Assembly (NCBI GenBank): GCA_001001375.1
Contig: LCNU01000004.1
Coordinates: 1-35,386, forward strand
Length of the DNA: 35,386 nucleotides
Direction: 5' to 3'
Origin: Candidatus Amesbacteria bacterium GW2011_GWC1_47_15
GTDB taxonomy: Bacteria > Patescibacteriota > Microgenomatia > CAZETR01 > Amesbacteraceae
Part shown: piece by piece, positions 6,930-34,722 of the stretch
Layout: each line of letters begins with the position of its first letter
How positions within the stretch are numbered: the first letter of the stretch is position 1
The notes under the pieces: model-generated
What the model saw: only the letters and a program-made list of their open reading frames with translations
Database searches by the model: none
What the model was told of the DNA's origin: nothing
Program-made: the position numbers and the translations under genes

Positions 6930-7232
6930 ATGAAATCTTTAAAACAATTGATTGACGACAAAAAACCGGTAGACAGGAACAAGTTTGTCACACGTGAATA
7001 CCAGGATTACGGCTACCGGCTGGCGATGGAACTTGGGGATCCGAAGCATAAATCCCTGTATATTCGCCTGGCGAAGGAAACGAAAAGGGCGATTCTGGAG
7101 CAGTGCAGGAGTTATGTAATGGACTCAAACGCGGAAAACAAGGGAGCTCTTTTTATGTGGAAGCTGAAGGAGGTAAGAAAAGCAGGAGTCAGCCAGGGGT
7201 CAGATGTAGGTCAAGATAATACCGGCCAGTAA
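6930..7232 (+). CDS. hypothetical protein, helical, 100 aa
   Basis: The protein is rich in charged residues (SLKQLIDDKKPVDRNKFVTREYQDYGYRLAMELG...) with no hydrophobic segment, so it is probably a small soluble helical protein. No family is recognised. The block TREYQDYGYRLAMELGDPKHKSLYIRLAKE looks like a compact helical fold and the composition is coding-like. The last ~15 residues (SQGSDVGQDNTGQ) are encoded by the operator-like GTCA repeats at 7188-7213 that belong to the next gene's promoter, so the true C-terminal tail is probably unstructured. The ATG follows the AT-rich TATTAAATTTTCTTT. Confidence 0.6.
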   Translation: MKSLKQLIDDKKPVDRNKFVTREYQDYGYRLAMELGDPKHKSLYIRLAKETKRAILEQCRSYVMDSNAENKGALFMWKLKEVRKAGVSQGSDVGQDNTGQ

Positions 7233-7241
7233 AAGGATAAT
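7188..7241 (+). promoter_or_regulatory. GTCA-repeat operator and promoter, copy 1 (before the 162-aa gene)
   Basis: Three direct GTCA repeats start at 7188, 7199 and 7210, spaced exactly 11 bp. The last one (GTCAAG, 7210-7215) is followed by exactly 20 bp and then GATAAT (7236-7241), 9 nt before the ATG at 7251. The same GTCA-N7-GTCA-N7-GTCAAG-N20-GAWAAT arrangement recurs at 10182-10235 and 10620-10673. An 11-bp direct-repeat period is the usual binding pattern of PhoB-type winged-helix regulators, and such a protein is encoded at 8968-10113. Confidence 0.7.
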
Positions 7242-7250
7242 GTCGGGTAT

Positions 7251-7739
7251 ATGAAAATTGACGATGAGAGGTTTGCCACGGAAGCTAAACATTTGATGAA
7301 ACATTACCCTTCGGGGCCCTGGGCTGAGGACATAGCGAAAAAGTTGGGAGTACCGGGACTTTATTTTACCGGTGACCAAATTGCAGGATTACTGGATGCG
7401 AGAAGAAATCGTCATAACGAGGTACATAAGAGGGTGAATATTATGGCCGGACAGATATTATTTTGGAATACCTGTGCACAGGCATTGAAAATGGGGAAAC
7501 GCCTGCCGGAATTCAGCAGGAGCAGGATTGTGGATGACCCGGGAGTTACTTGGGAAGAAGCGGCTGAAGCGCGGGGGAAAAGCGTGGAGCAGATTGTGGA
7601 AGAATATCGAAAAAACAATGAAATTTATTGGGATAGGGTGTGGAGCGAACTTGAAGAGACCGGCATTGCCGGATATTTGTGGCACGGAATGGCTCACAAC
7701 CATTTTAAACTAGCCCGGAGCCTGAAACTGGAACCATGA
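7251..7739 (+). CDS. hypothetical soluble protein, 162 aa, member of the GTCA regulon
   Basis: No family is recognised. The protein is mostly helical, with conserved-looking aromatic and charged blocks: HYPSGPWAEDIAKKLGVPGLYFTGDQIAGLLDARRNRHNEVHKRVN near the N-terminus and GYLWHGMAHNHFKLARSLKLEP at the end. The first segment could be a helix-turn-helix-like helical bundle, but no clear motif can be defended. Its promoter carries three GTCA repeats like those before the genes at 10243 and 10681, so it is probably co-regulated with them. Its 3' end converges with the minus-strand nucleotidyltransferase-like gene. Confidence 0.65.
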   Translation: MKIDDERFATEAKHLMKHYPSGPWAEDIAKKLGVPGLYFTGDQIAGLLDARRNRHNEVHKRVNIMAGQILFWNTCAQALKMGKRLPEFSRSRIVDDPGVTWEEAAEARGKSVEQIVEEYRKNNEIYWDRVWSELEETGIAGYLWHGMAHNHFKLARSLKLEP

Positions 7740-7911
7740 TGGTATTAGGCAGCGGGGAGGGAATTGATTCCGGCCAGGGCTGTTCGTGGGCGTTATAATT
7801 TCTTCCCCAACGGGTCTTTATTTCCTCGATATATTCCCTATTTGAATCCCAAGCCTGACGGTCTTTCCGGTTTATAAAGCGATGGGCATTCCAGCCGTTG
7901 GCTCCAGGTAT
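7705..7911 (-). pseudogene. possible frameshifted C-terminal extension of the nucleotidyltransferase-like protein
   Basis: Past the stop of the minus-strand gene at 7872, a second minus-strand frame is open from about 7911 down to a TAA at 7705-7707. It reads NGWNAHRFINRKDRQAWD, then SNREYIEEIKTRWGRNYNAH and EQPWPESIPSPL. The composition is protein-like (Trp, Tyr and charged residues, no low complexity) and unlike a random out-of-frame shadow. A one-base shift near codon ~355 of the upstream gene would join it to that protein and add about 65 residues. It may be a real frameshift mutation, a programmed shift or a sequencing error. It overlaps the 3' end of the convergent 162-aa gene by 35 bp. 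Confidence 0.35.
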
Positions 7912-8975
7912 TCGATGGCACGGGTGAGAAAGTAATTTAAAACCCAGAAAACCTCCAGATTGCGGTCAGTTTCCGCTGCCCGTACAAGTATGGGCAGCAT
8001 GCCTGTCTGCCCCAGGTTTTTTAAGGCATCTCTGTCCAGGTGTTTGAATATCCCGGGTGAAGATAGTTCCTTGATGAATGAATTACAGACAGATGCAGCC
8101 TGTTCCGGGGTGGGTTTCAGATGGGAAAAAGTCCCTGCCACTCCTTTGGCCAAAAGATGAACCTGGCGCTCGGGTTCATAAAGCCCGTAAGAACCTACAC
8201 GATGCAGCAATTTAACAGCTTTGCCTACCACCCGCCAGTCCTGCCGGGCAATCAAGTATTGACCAAAAGGAATATCTATCCGGTGAGGATCCATATCCAG
8301 GGAGCCGCAGAAGTCGGTGCAATAAAAAGTGTTTCCCAGTAGGGAGATGGTAACGGTATCGGGAAAATCGTCGCCGTCGAAAATCTTGGCCGTGACAGGG
8401 TGTGTATGATCCCGGTTGAGATGAAACTGGAGGGGAATGCCTGAACCCGTTGGGATGGGGAAAGTTGTCAGGTCTTTTGCTCCCCGGCAGGGTATGAATT
8501 CACCCAACGTAAAGACACTTTGCAGGTAATTTCGGATAGGGGGAGTGTCGGCCAGCAGGCAATCAAAGTCGGAACCTCTAAATTCCGGGTAATCCCTCAA
8601 GCGAAAATACTCATAATGGATGCGGTGGAAATGCCGGGGATTTACCCGCTTTTCGATTTCCAGGCGTTTCCAGCGGGCGAAGCTGCCAAAAAAGGTGGGG
8701 GGGAAGTCTCCGGGGCTAATGCCGTATAGGTCGGTCCAAAGCTGTGGCAGCGTTCCGGTTTCCCGGCTTATTTCTTCAAGGGAAAGGGGATAACCTTTTT
8801 TAGCTATCTGCCGGTTTACCTCTGATGCCGGAGTCATCCCCATCGCTTCAACTTCCGGCATAGCAATGGGGCCGTAGAATCTGTACCTGTCCCAACCCAG
8901 ACGGCAAAGAGGCAGAGGTTTTTGGGCACGGACTTCATAACTGCGCTCGTTGGGTTGGGAAGATTCTTTAGGCAT
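7872..8975 (-). CDS. predicted nucleotidyltransferase-like protein (Pol-beta-type fold)
   Basis: 367 aa. The central region contains PTFFGSFARWKRLE, and after about 30 residues PEFRGSDFDCLLAD. Together these look like the minimal nucleotidyltransferase signature hG[GS]xAR...[G]SDxDhh, with the two acidic metal ligands in SDFD but an unusual insertion between the two halves. A later strand (PLQFHLNRDHTH or KIFDGDDF) could supply the third carboxylate. The C-terminal third (AVKLLHRVGSYGLYE to LTRAIEYLEP) is helical. The start ATG (8973-8975) overlaps the end of the regulator gene at 8968 by 8 bp, so the two are co-transcribed and translationally coupled. The end may be frameshifted (see 7705-7911). 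The substrate is unknown; candidates are tRNA, protein or a small molecule. Confidence 0.6.
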   Translation of the reverse strand: MPKESSQPNERSYEVRAQKPLPLCRLGWDRYRFYGPIAMPEVEAMGMTPASEVNRQIAKKGYPLSLEEISRETGTLPQLWTDLYGISPGDFPPTFFGSFARWKRLEIEKRVNPRHFHRIHYEYFRLRDYPEFRGSDFDCLLADTPPIRNYLQSVFTLGEFIPCRGAKDLTTFPIPTGSGIPLQFHLNRDHTHPVTAKIFDGDDFPDTVTISLLGNTFYCTDFCGSLDMDPHRIDIPFGQYLIARQDWRVVGKAVKLLHRVGSYGLYEPERQVHLLAKGVAGTFSHLKPTPEQAASVCNSFIKELSSPGIFKHLDRDALKNLGQTGMLPILVRAAETDRNLEVFWVLNYFLTRAIEYLEPTAGMPIAL

Positions 8976-10113
8976 GGACTGAAATTTTGTAGCCCCGGTT
9001 CCTTAAGGTCAGGATCTGATAAGGGGTGCCGGACAGCTTTTTTTTAAGGTTGCTGATGGAGCGGTCTATAGCCCAGTCTGAATATTTTTCCGCGGCCAGC
9101 TTGCCCCAGATGACTCCGGCGATCTCGTCCCGGCTGACCACCTGATGGGGATGAGCCTGGAAGTAATCGAATATCAGTTTTTGCTGGGCTGTCAGCTGGG
9201 GAACTGAAGGACCTGCCAAGGTGGTTTCCCGGGAATGTACGGGAGGCGGGAGCAGGGGAATGGAAAACGGGCTGTTTTGTTTGTCCAGGTATGTCAGACT
9301 GTCCCAGATCATTTGGACAATCGAATCTATTTGCGGATGATTTTTGGTCTGCGAGAGCAGCTGCAATTCGGATAAGGTAAGGGAGATTAACAATTTGTAG
9401 AGTACGTAATGTCCGCCTGAAAGGGTCGAGGCCAGGGAATGGACCGGGGCAGAAATTTTTTGTCCGGAAAAAAACTCCAGCCGGGAGCGGGTATAGTCCA
9501 ATTCTGCCTGATCAAACAGCGGGAAGTCGATGATATTTTCCTCTATTGCGAGTTTGAGCGGGGAAAGGAGTGGCTGGTTTTTCTTTTCCAAAAGAACGGG
9601 AGAACCGATGAAACAAAAGACTATGAAAGACTGTGGGGGGTGGCGGAAAATTCCCCATAACCTTTGAAGAGTCCGGATGGATTCAGGGTTGGTCAACATT
9701 TTTTCCGCTTGATATAGAACGATCACCAGATGATGGTCTCTGGAGATACTTGTAAGAGCTGCTTCCAGCCCAAGCAGCGAGAGCAGATCATCCGAAGTGC
9801 GCAGACGGTTTTCCAGTTCCGTTTTGGCACCGGGGGAAAGGAGGGACGATTGCAATAGTTTAATACTGAGGGTATTGATCAAGCGGCGGGGGGAAAGGTT
9901 TTCGTCTTCGAGAACCAGGAAGGTAAATTTATTATTATCTATAAATTCGGACAGGAATTCAGGATCGTATTCGAGAATAAACTTAAAATATGAGCTGCGG
10001 GAGGACTGAGGCAGACCGATGAGTGTAGAGGAAAGCCCTTTTTTGAAGGCGCCAAAAACCCGGTCGTAGCGGGGATGAAGATATTTGGGGGGGAGGGGAT
10101 AAGTGTAGTCCAT
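8968..10113 (-). CDS. regulator: degenerate AAA/STAND-like ATPase domain with C-terminal PhoB-type winged helix
   Basis: 381 aa from the ATG at 10113. The upstream TTG at 10161 is not a good start, because it is the -35 box of a promoter. Residues ~30-270 look like an NTPase domain: a P-loop position reading LIGLPQSSRSSYF (Gly and Ser kept, the usual Gly-Lys-Ser/Thr altered), HLVIVLYQAEKML in the Walker B position and FIVFCFIGSP in the sensor-1 position. ATP hydrolysis may therefore be lost. Residues ~290-381 (LTAQQKLIFDYFQAHPHQVVSRDEIAGVIWG to DRSISNLKKKLSG, then ILTLRNRGYKI) match the OmpR/PhoB effector domain well, including the RGYKI wing. No receiver domain is present, so the ATPase-like part is probably the sensor. 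Its own promoter region carries the GTCA repeats. Confidence 0.75.
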   Translation of the reverse strand: MDYTYPLPPKYLHPRYDRVFGAFKKGLSSTLIGLPQSSRSSYFKFILEYDPEFLSEFIDNNKFTFLVLEDENLSPRRLINTLSIKLLQSSLLSPGAKTELENRLRTSDDLLSLLGLEAALTSISRDHHLVIVLYQAEKMLTNPESIRTLQRLWGIFRHPPQSFIVFCFIGSPVLLEKKNQPLLSPLKLAIEENIIDFPLFDQAELDYTRSRLEFFSGQKISAPVHSLASTLSGGHYVLYKLLISLTLSELQLLSQTKNHPQIDSIVQMIWDSLTYLDKQNSPFSIPLLPPPVHSRETTLAGPSVPQLTAQQKLIFDYFQAHPHQVVSRDEIAGVIWGKLAAEKYSDWAIDRSISNLKKKLSGTPYQILTLRNRGYKISVHA

Positions 10114-10132
10114 ACCGGAAGCAGGAGACGAT

Positions 10133-10161
10133 ATTATAGGATGCGGGAAGACGGGAGTCAA
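10133..10161 (-). promoter_or_regulatory. promoter of the regulator/nucleotidyltransferase operon
   Basis: On the minus strand, TTGACT (10156-10161), a 17-bp spacer, then TATAAT (10133-10138): a near-consensus sigma70 promoter. The ATG at 10113 lies 19 nt past the -10 box, giving a leader of about 12 nt. The complement of the -35 box contains GTCA (10157-10160), the first member of the adjacent repeat array. A protein bound there would cover the -35 box, which suggests autoregulation. Confidence 0.75.
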
Positions 10162-10235
10162 TCAGGGTCAGGTTCGGTCAGGTCAGGCAAAGGTCAGGTG
10201 CGGGTCAAGCTTTAGATTTCTAGGCAGGGGAAAAT
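10157..10235 (+). promoter_or_regulatory. GTCA-repeat operator array and promoter, copy 2 (divergent)
   Basis: Six GTCA repeats start at 10157, 10167, 10177, 10182, 10193 and 10204, with steps of 10, 10, 5, 11 and 11 bp. The last three have the same 11-bp phase as the other two operators. GTCAAG (10204-10209) is followed by 20 bp and GAAAAT (10230-10235), 7 nt before the ATG at 10243. The 28-bp core of this array recurs at 10619-10647. The array lies between the regulator gene and the divergently transcribed 123-aa gene. Confidence 0.75.
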
Positions 10236-10242
10236 TCAGAGC

Positions 10243-10614
10243 ATGGTTGCAGAGATTGAAAAATTCCGGATCAATGAGTACCGCTCCAAGGGCGGCCTGG
10301 TGGCAGAGGAGATCAAACTAGGGAAGAAGATAATAGTGGATAACCGTACCGTAACTTTTGAAAGCCTAAAAGGATTGAAGCAGGTTAGAGATTACCCTGA
10401 CGGGACGGTACAGGTGAGTATTAAAAGAGGTTCAGGGACTTTTACTCCTTCGATAACAATAAATGGTGAAGTCTTTTTTTATGATACCAAGTCGGGCATC
10501 GAGATGTTTCTTAAGGGAGTGGGTACTTCCGTAACATTAGATCACCAGAAATGGATTGGTCCGGAAAAAAAAGGTGTTGATAATTTTTGGTATAAGGTAA
10601 CCAAGACGGGTTAG
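10243..10614 (+). CDS. hypothetical protein, beta-rich, 123 aa, member of the GTCA regulon
   Basis: No family is recognised. The sequence alternates charged and hydrophobic residues (GKKIIVDNRTVTFESLKGLKQV, GTVQVSIKRGSGTFTPSITING), which suggests a small beta-sheet protein, and there is no signal peptide or membrane segment. The ATG is placed 7 nt after GAAAAT, so the mRNA is probably leaderless. It is transcribed divergently from the regulator gene through the six-repeat operator array, and a second GTCA operator starts 6 bp after its stop. This arrangement makes it a prime direct target of the regulator. Confidence 0.65.
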   Translation: MVAEIEKFRINEYRSKGGLVAEEIKLGKKIIVDNRTVTFESLKGLKQVRDYPDGTVQVSIKRGSGTFTPSITINGEVFFYDTKSGIEMFLKGVGTSVTLDHQKWIGPEKKGVDNFWYKVTKTG

Positions 10615-10619
10615 GCGGT

Positions 10620-10673
10620 GTCAGGCAAAGGTCAGGTGCGGGTCAAGTAACAGCGACAGACTTGGAGGAAAAT
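10620..10673 (+). promoter_or_regulatory. GTCA-repeat operator and promoter, copy 3 (before the 263-aa gene)
   Basis: GTCA repeats start at 10620, 10631 and 10642 (11-bp steps). GTCAAG (10642-10647) is followed by 20 bp and GAAAAT (10668-10673), 7 nt before the ATG at 10681. Positions 10619-10647 are identical to the corresponding part of the array at 10181-10209, and the distance from repeat to ATG (33 bp) is also identical. Confidence 0.75.
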
Positions 10674-10680
10674 CCTGAAC

Positions 10681-11472
10681 ATGGCAGCGGAAGGCGTACG
10701 AAAATTTACCGCCCGGGTGGATATTATCCGCAGCGGAGAAAAGGGTCCCTTAAAAAGATGGGGGAGGATGGAATACAACTATTCAGTTTGGTCTAGGTTG
10801 ACTCCGGAAATGCTGGATGATTTTAGCCTGAAGCCGGGATTGGTGGGCCATGGGGAAATTCCCGGACTGGCAGAAGTAAAAGTGGGACGGAATTTTACCG
10901 ATGTGAAGTTATTCAGAGAAGAATTAGCAGAGGGAACATTCATAACTACAGGGGGACCGCATAAAAGGCAAGAGAATATCAAATGGCGGGAACAAATTGA
11001 TGCCGTAGGGATCATTGCAATCGCTTTAAACAGGGTGGGAGAGTATGTGGAATGGCAGGCAGAGGGAAGACATGACGATTTTGAGGTAAGAGTGGTTAAC
11101 TTAAAAAACCGGATGCCCAGCAGATATCCGGAAAAATGTTCTTTGGGAAGCAGGATAGACCCGCTTAAGTTTTTTTGGCTGAATGAGGTACGCAGACTTG
11201 AGAGTTGGATCGGATGGGATCCGGAATTTGTGCGCCAGGAAATAGGAAAATTGAAGGAAGAAGAAGTGGAGAAGACCATAAAAGTCCTGGAGGTTCTGAA
11301 GGATTCACTTGGAAAAGGGGAGACGCTGGAAAATATCGCCTTTTCCGGCCTATTTGATGAGAGCTGTTTTCTGGCTTCTGCCAACCGCAGTGTTAATCCA
11401 AGGCGGACTTCATTAGCCCAGATCGAAGCCGGAATATTACTAGAGAGTGAAAAGAGGAAGAAGGATAAATGA
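10681..11472 (+). CDS. hypothetical protein, 263 aa, member of the GTCA regulon
   Basis: No family is recognised. The N-terminal half is mixed alpha/beta (KFTARVDIIRSGEKGPLKRWGRMEYNYSVWSRLT). The middle has GTFITTGGPHKRQENIKWREQIDAVGIIAIALNRVG, and the C-terminal third is strongly helical and charged (EFVRQEIGKLKEEEVEKTIKVLEVLKDSLGKGETLEN), perhaps a coiled coil. No signal peptide or membrane helix is present. The start is set by the GAAAAT box 7 nt upstream. The stop overlaps the next ATG (ATGA at 11469-11472), so the 71-aa product should be co-translated with it, which hints that the two work together. Confidence 0.65.
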   Translation: MAAEGVRKFTARVDIIRSGEKGPLKRWGRMEYNYSVWSRLTPEMLDDFSLKPGLVGHGEIPGLAEVKVGRNFTDVKLFREELAEGTFITTGGPHKRQENIKWREQIDAVGIIAIALNRVGEYVEWQAEGRHDDFEVRVVNLKNRMPSRYPEKCSLGSRIDPLKFFWLNEVRRLESWIGWDPEFVRQEIGKLKEEEVEKTIKVLEVLKDSLGKGETLENIAFSGLFDESCFLASANRSVNPRRTSLAQIEAGILLESEKRKKDK

Positions 11473-11684
11473 AAATACTTAATATTCATCTGGGTTTCGG
11501 GGGCGGCAGGGAGGCAAGCATATCCATTGATGACGAGGGGAAAGCGCATCTTTGGGAAACTGAGTGGATGGGAGGGTTGCCGTTTATTGGCAGGTTGGGA
11601 GAAATAAACCACAAAGAATTGGGAATGATGATGAAGGAAGCAAAAGATAAACATGTGACCATCAGAGGGGAGAGACAGAGATAG
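11469..11684 (+). CDS. hypothetical small protein, 71 aa, coupled to the 263-aa gene
   Basis: It starts at an ATGA overlap with the preceding stop, the usual sign of translational coupling. The sequence (KILNIHLGFGGGREASISIDDEGKAHLWETEWMGG...) predicts a small alpha/beta protein with no membrane segment. It has no recognised family. As the second gene behind GTCA operator copy 3, it should belong to the same local regulon. Confidence 0.55.
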   Translation: MKILNIHLGFGGGREASISIDDEGKAHLWETEWMGGLPFIGRLGEINHKELGMMMKEAKDKHVTIRGERQR

Positions 11685-11725: not shown

Positions 11726-12310
11726 ATGGGAGTGAGGATAAAAAACCCTAAAGAAACTTTGTGGATTGCGGGGCCGCTTCTTTTCGTCCTTTTGGTACGG
11801 ATGGTGAGAGCGTACGCGACACGGCTTAACCCGGCATTTAACTGGCCTCCGGTACTACTGGGAAACGCGTTTTTGGCTATCGGGTGGGGTCTGGGGTATT
11901 TTCTGGCTGAGGCGGATCATGTATTTTATGCCACCATGTGCGATCCGCAGGATGAGACCTGCCGTCTGGTAAAAGAAGAATGGGAGAGAAAAAACTGGCG
12001 CAATGCCTGGGGTATTTTGGAAAGGACCAAGGGAGAAAGAAAGCGTCTTCCAATAAGAAACATGCTGACGATATTTATTCTCCTGGGAGTGGGGATATGG
12101 GTGGTTTCTTCTTCGGGGAGCATGCTGGCGTCCGGAATGGTGATGGGGCTTCTGGTGAGACTGTTTTCAGAGGCAGTCAGAGACGCGGAATACAAAAAGT
12201 GGTACTGGGTATTTGCCCGGGATTTTACCCCCATGGAACACAGAGGATTTCTGACGGCCTGGGGTCTGGTACTTTTATTTTCCCTGGTTCTTTTGATGAG
12301 AGGTTTTTGA
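11726..12310 (+). CDS. hypothetical membrane protein, 194 aa
   Basis: About four hydrophobic segments: residues ~13-29 (LWIAGPLLFVLLVRMV), ~41-62 (PPVLLGNAFLAIGWGLGYFL), ~112-142 (NMLTIFILLGVGIWVVSSSG and SMLASGMVMGLLVRLF), and ~174-192 (AWGLVLLFSLVLLM). A polar loop between helices 2 and 3 holds two Cys residues (CDPQDETC). No family is recognised. It ends 5 bp before the ZIP transporter start, so the two are probably co-transcribed. Confidence 0.6.
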   Translation: MGVRIKNPKETLWIAGPLLFVLLVRMVRAYATRLNPAFNWPPVLLGNAFLAIGWGLGYFLAEADHVFYATMCDPQDETCRLVKEEWERKNWRNAWGILERTKGERKRLPIRNMLTIFILLGVGIWVVSSSGSMLASGMVMGLLVRLFSEAVRDAEYKKWYWVFARDFTPMEHRGFLTAWGLVLLFSLVLLMRGF

Positions 12311-22322: not shown

Positions 22323-22359
22323 TCAGAAAAGTATAGCAATAAATAACTTGCCTGTCTTA

Positions 22360-22388
22360 TTGACCTATAGTGGGGGAGGGGGTAAAAT
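22360..22388 (+). promoter_or_regulatory. shared-type leaderless promoter A
   Basis: TTGACC (22360-22365), 17-bp spacer TATAGTGGGGGAGGGGG, TAAAAT (22383-22388), 7 nt, ATG 22396. The spacer is nearly identical in copies B and C. Confidence 0.85.
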
Positions 22389-22395
22389 TCCGATT

Positions 22396-22938
22396 ATGCC
22401 ATTAGAGAAAGGTGTACCTCCATACACGGAAGCGGGAAGCAGGCACGAAAGGGTGGCCACTGAAAGAGAGAAGCAATATGGGAGGGTCACTGAAATTTCA
22501 AAATCGTATTTTCAGCTTGCTTGCAAGAGAAATACTTTTTTGGCAGACTTCCAACTGAACGAAAGAGTTCTGGTTGAAGTGTTAGTCTGGACCAAAGACA
22601 AGGTTCAAAAATATTTAATGCCAACTGCGGACAGAAAGGATGAGTGTAAGACTCTGGCATTGGCACCGGATGGGACAGTTTATGATTTGACGATATATTT
22701 ACAATTGATTAGTGAACCAGACAAGGAAGGGGAGAGGTTTCCTTTGGTAAAAGCGGCAAGGAAGGCTTCCCTGATAACAGAAGACTCCGTTTATTGTGAT
22801 TTACATGCTGATGAGCCAACACCCGGAGATCCTATTACTGCGCGTACAATAGAAATTGGAACCGGTAACAAAAGCGGATACTTAAAGAAGTTTGCGGATA
22901 AATTGGAAGCACAAATGAAACCATTTAAACAGAAGTAA
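22396..22938 (+). CDS. hypothetical protein, 180 aa, paralogue of the gene at 23350
   Basis: The start is set at the ATG 7 nt after the -10 box. The frame is open further upstream, but that part is the promoter itself. There are no membrane segments. The central region YLMPTADRKDECKTLALAPDGTVYDLTIYLQL then SEPDKEGERFPLV aligns with FIMPVMSMMDDANDLAAAPDGTVYQMEKDLGL and SEPDKHKKTYPLL in the protein at 23350, so APDGTVY and SEPDK mark a small family. A C-terminal amphipathic helix (LKKFADKLEAQMKPFKQK) is also shared. Function is unknown. It is co-regulated with the two following genes through the repeated promoter. Confidence 0.65.
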   Translation: MPLEKGVPPYTEAGSRHERVATEREKQYGRVTEISKSYFQLACKRNTFLADFQLNERVLVEVLVWTKDKVQKYLMPTADRKDECKTLALAPDGTVYDLTIYLQLISEPDKEGERFPLVKAARKASLITEDSVYCDLHADEPTPGDPITARTIEIGTGNKSGYLKKFADKLEAQMKPFKQK

Positions 22939-22988
22939 AGTAAATTTGGATTTATTAAAGGATGGTATATCAGGAAAAACAGATGAAG

Positions 22989-23017
22989 TTGACCTATAGT
23001 GGGGGAGGAGGTAAAAT
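22989..23017 (+). promoter_or_regulatory. shared-type leaderless promoter B
   Basis: TTGACC (22989-22994), 17-bp spacer TATAGTGGGGGAGGAGG, TAAAAT (23012-23017), 7 nt, ATG 23025. Confidence 0.85.
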
Positions 23018-23024
23018 TCCGGCT

Positions 23025-23291
23025 ATGGCAGGAAATTTTGAAAGATGCACGGGGTGCCCATTGGTACGTGAAGGACATATATGTGAGATACTGGCCAAAG
23101 CTGTTGAACTATCCGGCATTAATGATACGGGAGTAAAACAGGTAAAGTTTGAATGTCCAAAACTTATAGAACTCCCACATAGCCGGGACCTTTTTGACTA
23201 TGGAGTAATAACCATTACAAAAAAAGGGGCAACCTACGGAGAGTGGGGACAGGCGGCTGATGAATTGGGGAAAGCGTTTTTCGGAGGATAG
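23025..23291 (+). CDS. hypothetical small protein, 88 aa, Cys-containing
   Basis: It starts with MAGNFERCTGCPLVREGHICEIL, where CxxC followed by C and a further Cys at KFECPKL could form a small metal-binding site. It contains YGVITITKKGATYGEWGQAADELGKAF. No family is recognised and it is not clearly related to its two neighbours apart from the promoter. The start is set by the promoter, 7 nt from -10 box to ATG. Confidence 0.6.
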   Translation: MAGNFERCTGCPLVREGHICEILAKAVELSGINDTGVKQVKFECPKLIELPHSRDLFDYGVITITKKGATYGEWGQAADELGKAFFGG

Positions 23292-23312
23292 GAGATATTT
23301 TTGAAATTTTTG

Positions 23313-23341
23313 TTGACCTATAGTGGAAGGGGGAGTAAAAT
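23313..23341 (+). promoter_or_regulatory. shared-type leaderless promoter C
   Basis: TTGACC (23313-23318), 17-bp spacer TATAGTGGAAGGGGGAG, TAAAAT (23336-23341), 8 nt, ATG 23350. Confidence 0.85.
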
Positions 23342-23349
23342 TCCCGAAT

Positions 23350-23925
23350 ATGAGTCCGCTGGAGGCAGATGTTAAAGCGTATCAAAAAGGTTTGAGTCCC
23401 TGGGATAGGGAACAGGAAGCACGCAGAGGGCAGATGTCCAGGATTACCGGGTTAACAGAGGAATATACACACAGGATGGAAAAAAGAACTCCCGGTGCCA
23501 AGGGTTATTATCCGAGTCTGGTAGGGGAGATTTTATTTGTCCGTGAATACCACCAAGACGAAATAAGGGAATTTATCATGCCGGTGATGTCTATGATGGA
23601 TGATGCCAATGACCTGGCAGCGGCTCCGGACGGCACTGTATATCAAATGGAAAAAGATCTGGGATTATTCTTTACCTTGCGGCTGAAGAGCGAGCCGGAC
23701 AAACATAAGAAGACGTACCCGCTATTGAATAGGGTTAGTGAGAAACTGTTTTCCCATAATCATAAAGACCTGCTGCCGATACATGCACAACCATTAGAGT
23801 ATCCTTCACCCACCGCTACGTCTCCGGTCGTTGTCATCTTGAGCACTGTAAGTGAATTTTTACCGGCCGACGATTTGAAGGGGATAGCTGATAAACTAGA
23901 GCAGCAGCTGGAAGTGGCCAGGTAA
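23350..23925 (+). CDS. hypothetical protein, 191 aa, paralogue of the gene at 22396
   Basis: It shares with the 22396 product the blocks IMPVMSMMDDANDLAAAPDGTVYQ and LKSEPDKHKKTYPLL and a C-terminal helix (DDLKGIADKLEQQLEVAR). The N-terminal ~60 residues are helical and charged (WDREQEARRGQMSRITGLTEEYTHRMEKR). No membrane segment or signal peptide is seen. It is the third gene under the TTGACCTATAGTGG promoter type. Function is unknown. The next promoter follows 25 bp after the stop. Confidence 0.65.
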   Translation: MSPLEADVKAYQKGLSPWDREQEARRGQMSRITGLTEEYTHRMEKRTPGAKGYYPSLVGEILFVREYHQDEIREFIMPVMSMMDDANDLAAAPDGTVYQMEKDLGLFFTLRLKSEPDKHKKTYPLLNRVSEKLFSHNHKDLLPIHAQPLEYPSPTATSPVVVILSTVSEFLPADDLKGIADKLEQQLEVAR

Positions 23926-34026: not shown

Positions 34027-34722
34027 GAGCCGAAAGGCCGTTGTAGTTGTAAAAGTCGACTATATGCTGGAACGTCTGAGTATCTCACACTAGTATTGAC
34101 TTCGGTTTTTATTCGGGGTTAAACTAACAATGTGTTGAGTGCAGATAATCAGCAGGAAAGGCTAGAGACAGGACAATTCTTGGCAGGGTTTGCAGAAGGA
34201 GAAGGAAGTTTTAATATTTCCTTGCGCCGGAAAACAGATTACAAGGTAAATTGGCAGGTGGTGATGAGTTTCAATATATCTCAACGCGACCCCACTTTAT
34301 TGAATTTGTTTCAGCAAATTCTGAGATGCGGGATTATAAAAAAAAGGTTTGATGGGGTTTATTCACTTGATGTGACCACTCCTTTGGACATTGTTAGTAA
34401 AGTAATTCCGTTTTTCCAAGAGTTTCCTCTTCGTTCTGAAAGTAAGCAACGCAACTTTAATTTATTTGTTAAAGCGGCAAGCTTAATGAAGAGCGGGGAG
34501 CATAAAAACCCAGAAGGTTTGTTTAAAATTTTAAAGATTCGAGAGCAAATAAACCTGGGTAAAGGGAGGACTAGAAAATATTCAATTTTTGATGTTTTTC
34601 CTAAGCAATCTTTAGAATCCTCAGAGACTATACGTCGACCCCCGCCAAGGCGGGGATGATATAGTCCGATCTCATAGGCGACTATGAGACTCCGTAATCA
34701 ACCGGAGCATTGTAACAACATG
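34027..34722 (+). mobile_element. group I intron in 23S rRNA (insertion after E. coli position ~1917)
   Basis: 696 nt. Joining exons 34026/34723 restores GTAACTATAACTGTTCTATGG, which matches the helix-69 region. P1 is visible: exon AACTAT (34021-34026) pairs with the intron GTAGTT (34043-34048), with the required U-G wobble at the 5' splice site, and the intron ends in G (34722). GACTATATGCTGGAAC near 34058 and GATATAGTCCGATCTCATAGGCGACTATGAGA near 34660 look like core P3/P7 strands. The homing endonuclease gene fills the middle. Confidence 0.88.
34132..34659 (+). CDS. LAGLIDADG homing endonuclease in the 23S intron
   Basis: 175 aa, GTG start at 34132 (TTG 34135 also possible). A single motif FLAGFAEGEGSFN lies at residues ~18-30 and corresponds to LAGLIDADG with the catalytic acidic residue, so the enzyme should work as a homodimer and cut intron-less 23S genes at the helix-69 site. 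The following WQVVMSFNISQRDPTLLNLFQQIL, GVYSLDVTTPLDIVSKVIPFFQEFPL and KGRTRKYSIFDVF fit the family fold. The last residues (RRPPPRRG) are encoded by a small CCCCGCC palindrome at the edge of the intron core, so the frame runs into the catalytic RNA. Its codon usage is AT-rich compared with neighbours, as expected for a mobile gene. Confidence 0.9.
   Translation: MLSADNQQERLETGQFLAGFAEGEGSFNISLRRKTDYKVNWQVVMSFNISQRDPTLLNLFQQILRCGIIKKRFDGVYSLDVTTPLDIVSKVIPFFQEFPLRSESKQRNFNLFVKAASLMKSGEHKNPEGLFKILKIREQINLGKGRTRKYSIFDVFPKQSLESSETIRRPPPRRG

Follow-up and report, generated by a model that had tools for sequence, protein, structure and literature searches.

A phased GTCA promoter layout in Candidatus Amesbacteria and an apparently undescribed family of AAA+ winged-helix regulators predicted to read it

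PhoB activates transcription in the class II manner, from a site that overlaps the -35 position of the promoter. Its consensus site is reported to span 22 base pairs (bp) and to consist of two 11-bp direct repeats (PMC3978041), and the portion of PMC10294691 drawn on here describes pho boxes that carry the word GTCA-N7-GTCA, for example TGTCATAAAACTGTCATA at pstS, together with a strict spacing to the core promoter. A second point of reference is Orc1-2 of Saccharolobus, reported to be an ORC-type AAA+ regulator of transcription in DNA damage that binds its own promoter (PMC9738581). Here we analysed a stretch of 35,386 nucleotides (nt) from Candidatus Amesbacteria bacterium GW2011_GWC1_47_15 (contig LCNU01000004.1, positions 1 to 35,386; hereafter the window), in which three promoters carry the direct repeat GTCA-N7-GTCA-N7-GTCAAG close to the gene for a predicted regulator with an OmpR/PhoB-type winged helix and an ORC/Cdc6-like AAA+ part. 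The sequence evidence points to a genuine promoter code, accompanied by a regulator family that seems not to have been described before.

GTCA-N7-GTCA-N7-GTCAAG occurred three times in the window without mismatch (sites 1 to 3; Table 1), and allowing up to two mismatches added no further copy (shuffled sequences predict 0.12). Each site is followed by exactly 20 nt and then by a -10 box, GATAAT at site 1 and GAAAAT at sites 2 and 3, with an ATG a further 9, 7 and 7 nt downstream, respectively; these are the positions and spacings given in the original prediction, and they proved exact. Read from the sequence, none of the target promoters has a TTGACA-like box 17 nt before its -10 box, and the third GTCA box occupies that place. 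The 3' end of the open reading frame (ORF) at 6930-7232 contains site 1. The organism's own genome comprises 914,308 bases on 52 contigs and is 88% complete; in it, GTCA-N7-GTCA-N7-GTCA with at most one mismatch was found at these three places only, against one for the reversed control pattern, and all three lie within about 3 kb of the regulator start. The proposal of a local regulon, with a repeat confined to the regulator's island and not scattered genome-wide, was thus borne out. Chance or an assembly artefact is an exceedingly improbable explanation: sites 2 and 3 agree at all 28 nt and either could have been copied recently from the other, but the spacers of site 1 differ from theirs, shuffled and reversed controls gave 0 to 1, and the exact-site layout recurs in other genera.

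Table 1. Features of the regulator island, in coordinates of the window
Feature	Position	Strand	Basis or remark
Site 1, GTCA-N7-GTCA-N7-GTCAAG	7188..7215	+	-10 GATAAT 7236-7241; ATG 7251
Site 2, divergent from regulator	10182..10209	+	-10 GAAAAT 10230-10235; ATG 10243
Site 3	10620..10647	+	-10 GAAAAT 10668-10673; ATG 10681
Three further GTCA boxes (10157, 10167, 10177), bridging site 2 and the regulator promoter	10157..10180	+	Sequence
Predicted regulator promoter, TTGACT-N17-TATAAT	10133..10161	-	Promoter scan; layout kept in L034, L036 and L080, not in L035
Predicted regulator, N-terminal AAA+ (modelled) and C-terminal OmpR/PhoB-type winged helix (residues 306-376)	8968..10113	-	Pfam, profile, structure model
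Coupled partner, 367 amino acids (aa), nucleotidyltransferase-like by motif only (FGS...GSDFD)	7872..8975	-	Overlaps the end of the regulator
Predicted target gene of site 1, 162 aa	7251..7739	+	Weak sub-threshold family matches only
Predicted target gene of site 2, 123 aa	10243..10614	+	No family above cut-off
Predicted target gene of site 3, 263 aa, orphan	10681..11472	+	Absent from 94 other genomes searched
71-aa gene overlapping the end of the 263-aa gene, predicted same transcript	11469..11684	+	ORF

The winged helix of the regulator matched Pfam Trans_reg_C at 38.5 bits against a gathering cut-off of 26.2 (E-value 1.2e-9), and its solved relatives are PhoB, CpxR and WalR, which confirms the OmpR/PhoB-type assignment first made from the translation. 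Residues 29-217 gave a profile match to Cdc6-1 (2qby_A, 5.2e-5), an AlphaFold model of the protein reached a predicted local distance difference test score (pLDDT) of 92.3, and its Foldseek and VIA matches were to ORC/Cdc6, TnsC and CED-4/NLR. On the evidence of this model, the N-terminus is an AAA+ fold of the ORC/Cdc6/STAND type with eroded Walker motifs, in line with the degenerate NTPase domain that had been proposed. The Walker A consensus is GxxxxGKS/T and the Walker B consensus is hhhhDE; the corresponding regions of the window regulator read GLPQSSRSS and HLVIVLYQAE, so that the Walker A lysine has become arginine and the Walker B aspartate is lost. GLPxSxRS is the majority form among the 26 aligned nearest sequences, and the P-loop is degenerate in most of them. 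No receiver domain was found in the protein: Pfam gave Trans_reg_C alone, and the N-terminal part models as AAA+.

The system is not unique to the window: its regulator is one of a family that has numerous members across the class. Matches at E<=0.001 were present in 28 of the 95 genomes searched, the organism's own included, some with up to five matches (some of these multiple matches being pieces of one gene). A scan of named genomes yielded 44 family loci, with labels that include Amesbacteria, Woesebacteria, Roizmanbacteria, Gottesmanbacteria, Shapirobacteria and Levyibacteriota, as well as Daviesbacteria, Blackburnbacteria, Dojkabacteria and Paceibacterota. Pooling 86 hits left 71 non-redundant regulator frames that reach 250 aa or more, 69 of them with 150 nt or more of upstream sequence. 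Within 250-nt regions at the starts of these 69 regulators, we counted pairs of identical 4-mers by distance, an approach that presets no repeat. By far the largest excess fell at distance 11 (266 pairs versus 91.9 in control windows and 89.7 in shuffles; at distance 12, 141 versus 133 in control windows), and on the strand facing away from the regulator the leading distance-11 words were GTCA (22) and TCAG (19). With the pattern of the original prediction as template, a score of at least 16 was reached on the divergent strand in 21 of the 69 regions, compared with 3 on the other strand and 1.5 in shuffles. The -10 score, which is not part of the template, peaked 20 nt after GTCAAG, where 16 of the 35 divergent-strand sites with a template score of at least 14 had a strong box; other offsets between 8 and 35 had 0-3 strong boxes each.

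Among 373 genomes of the class, the exact three-box pattern occurred at 12 sites in 10 genomes, while the reversed control gave 0. Seven of the nine exact sites outside the organism's own genome lie no more than 1.5 kb from a family regulator encoded on the opposite strand (a single genus accounts for two of the seven); the remaining two lie in G138, which has regulators elsewhere in its genome, and in G245. Allowing one mismatch, the 95 genomes held 26 sites versus 9 for the control, and of the 23 that are not the organism's own, 11 had a regulator or regulator piece in the stretch retrieved around them and one more was the second site of a regulator's island. The repeat and the regulator therefore co-occur in relatives, as had been predicted, with the 11-nt excess around the 69 regulators and a largely conserved spacing. 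A rough comparison in which 10 of 36 regulator regions had a site with 0-2 mismatches was not used: 1 of 400 control windows was perfect, its identity was unchecked, and window sites 1 and 3 were not excluded from the controls. A loosely weighted repeat search, which returned many meaningless best hits, was likewise not used for counts. In one genome, G002 (L035 1-1864 and L080 1-250), the regulator seems broken, with a winged-helix piece running into the partner frame; GTCA sites are still present on both contigs.

Three further GTCA boxes lie between site 2 and the regulator. The original prediction placed them in 11-bp phase with the site: the boxes are real and reach into the regulator's -35, but their spacing is 10, 10 and then 5 nt (to site 2), not 11. 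The predicted regulator promoter matches 11 of the 12 sigma-70-like consensus bases, and the outermost GTCA box falls, on the complementary strand, within its -35 (TTGACT at 10161-10156, minus strand). As a promoter scan over 4.9 kb found four sigma-70-like promoters, no more than the 5.5 in shuffles, the weight of this assignment rests on conservation. Other loci of the same family have TTGACT-N17-TACAAT (L034), TTGACT-N17-TATAAT (L036) and TTGACT-N18-TACAAT (L080, a contig carrying just the start of a regulator), so that TTGACT-N17/18-TAYAAT with a GTCA box in its -35 is found at four of five loci, the broken L035 copy being without one. This is the layout for self-control that had been anticipated. 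More broadly, a sigma-70-like promoter on the regulator strand was found in 54 of 70 regions, versus 24.7 in base-shuffled sequences and 25 on the other strand, and its -35 included TGAC in 28 of the 70, versus 3.0 in shuffled sequences.

From these arrangements we infer binding, a direction of control, oligomer formation and a signal, and the protein at 8968-10113 is probably a one-component switch that would bind the GTCA array head to tail, activate the genes behind the three sites and hold down its own gene. Winged-helix domains would sit on successive GTCA boxes along one face of the DNA, and the ORC/Cdc6-like AAA+ domains would contact each other, stabilising the row. On GTCAAG, the last subunit would replace the missing -35 of the target promoter and contact RNA polymerase, as in class II activation, while the first would cover the regulator's own TTGACT and so repress it. 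Given the changed lysine of Walker A and the lost aspartate of Walker B, a signal delivered through nucleotide binding or through the coupled partner seems likelier than one through ATP hydrolysis. The same arrays could be read differently, with the regulator acting mainly as a repressor of both sides and the targets kept off until a signal releases it. The extension of the array into the regulator's own -35 fits such a role, and PhoB is itself reported as a dual regulator in the part of PMC10294691 drawn on here. We nevertheless regard repression of both sides as unlikely: the target promoters lack a TTGACA-like -35 at 17 nt, and the 20 nt between GTCAAG and the -10 box across many genomes fit activation better, a constant distance being unneeded by a repressor.

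The targets of the switch would probably be made from leaderless messages, like many genes of the lineage. Of 49 distinct sites, 22 have an ATG 6-9 nt beyond the -10 position from which a frame of 40 codons or more runs; for the same sites, successive eight-base bins from 13 to 60 nt held 1, 6, 3, 2, 1 and 2. Among 368 ATG-started genes (from L034-L053, L080-L099 and the window), strong -10 boxes peaked 6-9 nt before the ATG (26, 13, 17 and 20), with 1-13 at other distances. A -10 box at this position is the geometry of leaderless messages, which suggests that they are common in the lineage. We had considered leaderless starts as a mark of the regulon and rejected them as such, since they are common throughout these loci.

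Several results weigh against a switch of this kind as the reader of the GTCA word. The genome sets behind the different counts overlap, and the counts ignore kinship. Smaller 4-mer excesses stand at distances 10 (141 versus 98), 22 (133 versus 86) and 31 (139 versus 75), and at a template score of 14 the 35 of 69 divergent-strand regions must be set beside 26 on the other strand and 13.6 in shuffles, so that a good part of those 35 is chance. The distance from GTCAAG to the -10 box is 19 nt in L034 and 18 nt in L035, both near relatives. Many family members carry diverged words or none, and the correlation between regulator residues and site bases is weak (p 0.03-0.08 depending on threshold, without tree correction). 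The overlap of TGAC with the regulator's -35 comes partly for free, because TTGACA itself contains TGAC. G245 has a full site and no regulator at E<=0.001, and 11 of the 23 one-mismatch sites outside the organism's own genome have no regulator in the stretch retrieved around them, which is about the control level of 9.

The shorter, two-box pattern GTCA-N7-GTCAAG followed by a -10 box and an ATG bears on the same question. It gave 24 hits in 20 of the 373 genomes, whereas the control gave 0. Excluding the organism's own genome leaves 21 hits: 7 lie near a winged-helix regulator, 14 lack a family member within 1.5 kb, and at 5 the frame that starts has fewer than 20 codons. Four of the 7, in L155, L168, L171 and L175, lie beside winged-helix frames of 313-347 aa with a differing N-terminal part, and these proteins match only the later part of the family profile. 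The word may thus be read by more than one type of regulator, with a second type using it in these loci, or the hits without a family regulator may be chance. Taken further, the lineage would use GTCA-N7-GTCAAG as a promoter element recognised by several winged-helix regulators of the OmpR type, or by the transcription machinery itself, with the AAA+ protein just one reader. The two-box hits and the four winged-helix proteins speak for this, yet we hold it to be quite unlikely, as the sites of the organism's own genome all fall in one island, the exact three-box sites elsewhere adjoin the AAA+ family in seven of nine cases, and 12 exact sites in 373 genomes are far too few for a general element.

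The genes predicted to be under the switch change from locus to locus. Their description as four small genes was roughly right, at 162, 123, 263 and 71 aa. The small genes matched Pfam, NCBIfam and PHROG entries weakly (E about 0.002-0.4), under curated cut-offs where any exist; the 263-aa gene had no homologue in the 94 other genomes searched, and the other cargo genes gave one weak match (0.009) against 20 loci. The flanks partly recur in L034, L035/L080 and L036, where comparable. On one side are what we take to be a peptidyl-tRNA hydrolase-like gene and a gene like 6930-7232, and on the other a gene like 11726-12310 and presumed ZIP-like transporter and thioredoxin-like genes. Between these flanks the cargo varies, from three genes in the window to a 176-aa gene in L034 and a radical SAM gene (Pfam) with small genes in L036. 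Three observations suggested a ribosomally synthesised and post-translationally modified peptide system: an MvdD-type ATP-grasp near L095, the L036 radical SAM gene and a match to a peptide family below threshold. Each was seen once, and the idea was dropped. In L086, L087 and L089, which belong to one family, the regulator lies among small membrane proteins that in our estimation resemble type IV secretion or pilin genes, and one predicted target there is a protein of 800-900 aa.

The gene coupled to the regulator in the window had been taken for a nucleotidyltransferase, an identity that is unproven. Its one hit, 99% identical, is named from Candidatus Amesbacteria GW2011_GWB1_48_13. P0001, a 480-aa Amesbacteria protein 98-99% identical to it, has a different C-terminus; at 367 aa, the window copy may therefore be shortened. 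It had no Pfam, NCBIfam, PHROG or PADLOC match. Among 21 coupled partners of 300 aa or more (window included), 8 had a GS...DxD motif, versus 4 of 159 other genes, by a regular expression set after seeing examples. A fold model built from four sequences had a pLDDT of 35.8 and gave no usable fold, a PDB profile search returned designed beta-trefoils only, and single-protein PDB searches with the L101 and L040 partners gave no match. Other coupled partners carry a deaminase domain (L097, with L132 just below its cut-off) or a methyltransferase domain (L142).

The original prediction likened the layout to stress or defence modules. The island could be a defence or conflict module, in which the STAND/ORC-like protein would sense an invader and the partner enzyme and orphan cargo would be the effectors. 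The STAND-like fold, the deaminase and methyltransferase partners and the cargo that varies between fixed flanks would all suit it. We consider it improbable, however, since PADLOC returned no hit for 8 window proteins and 10 partners, two viral-contig stretches that matched the one peptide pattern searched yielded no confirmed relative, and the family also adjoins what we presume to be succinyl-CoA ligase-like and type IV secretion system-like genes, suggesting housekeeping or surface roles.

Some further features stand apart from the switch. In G002 (L080 1934-3621), the presumed thioredoxin-like gene seems, from its translation, to be split within the WC-GPC active site by what we take to be an intein-like stretch. 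In the window, the ORF at 34132-34659 looks like a putative LAGLIDADG homing endonuclease. Within 22348-23925, the ORFs at 22348 and 22962 share an LTYSGGGGKIP stretch near their starts, and, judged by eye, those encoded at 22396 and 23350 resemble paralogous proteins.

Beyond the window, we offer a wider and decidedly tentative proposal, which may well not hold: ORC/Cdc6-like AAA+ proteins might serve across the class as switches, in which a head-to-tail filament on a GTCA array joins two divergent promoters, silences the regulator, replaces the -35 of a fast-changing leaderless cargo operon and takes its signal from a coupled partner enzyme. On this view they would parallel archaeal Orc1-2 in bacteria and would have been recruited again and again for new cargo. 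Amesbacteria are tiny and uncultured. For Patescibacteria, the mechanisms governing cell differentiation are called completely unknown in the portion of PMC11665869 drawn on here. A transcription code legible from sequence alone, in which the spacing is set, the regulators form a family and the targets can be predicted, opens gene control in this radiation to tests in a surrogate host. Among the matches listed in searches of titles and abstracts of the open-access literature, we found no description of such a regulator family.

Set against described systems, the regulator shares the AAA+/STAND core fold of STAND/NLR-like NTPases such as CED-4 and plant NLRs, but it has no sensor repeats, its DNA-binding domain is C-terminal, and the P-loop is degenerate in most of the nearest 26 sequences. 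The likeness to PhoB/OmpR activators and the pho box is closer to the DNA: the same C-terminal domain family, 11-bp direct repeats, the GTCA word and, as for PhoB, a site over the -35 position. Unlike those activators, the regulator has an N-terminal AAA+ part in place of a receiver, its arrays have three to six boxes, and at many sites the ATG lies 6-9 nt after the -10 box. NTP-dependent conflict systems, as far as the part of PMC7159879 drawn on here describes them, similarly combine an NTPase with varied enzymes and changing small genes, although no shared family was detected above cut-off and an FtsH-ternary-system peptide match in L036 was sub-threshold (0.017). With archaeal Orc1-2, the window regulator shares an ORC/Cdc6-type AAA+ part and a C-terminal winged helix, and the role reported for Orc1-2, a regulator of transcription that binds its own promoter, is the one predicted here. 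Orc1-2 is described as keeping Walker A and B and binding an ANTTTC hexamer (in the portion of PMC9738581 drawn on here), whereas the window regulator is bacterial, carries an OmpR-type winged helix and no longer has key Walker residues, and its predicted sites form an array of boxes; it would provide a bacterial example of an AAA+ protein of the ORC/Cdc6-like kind serving as a regulator of transcription.

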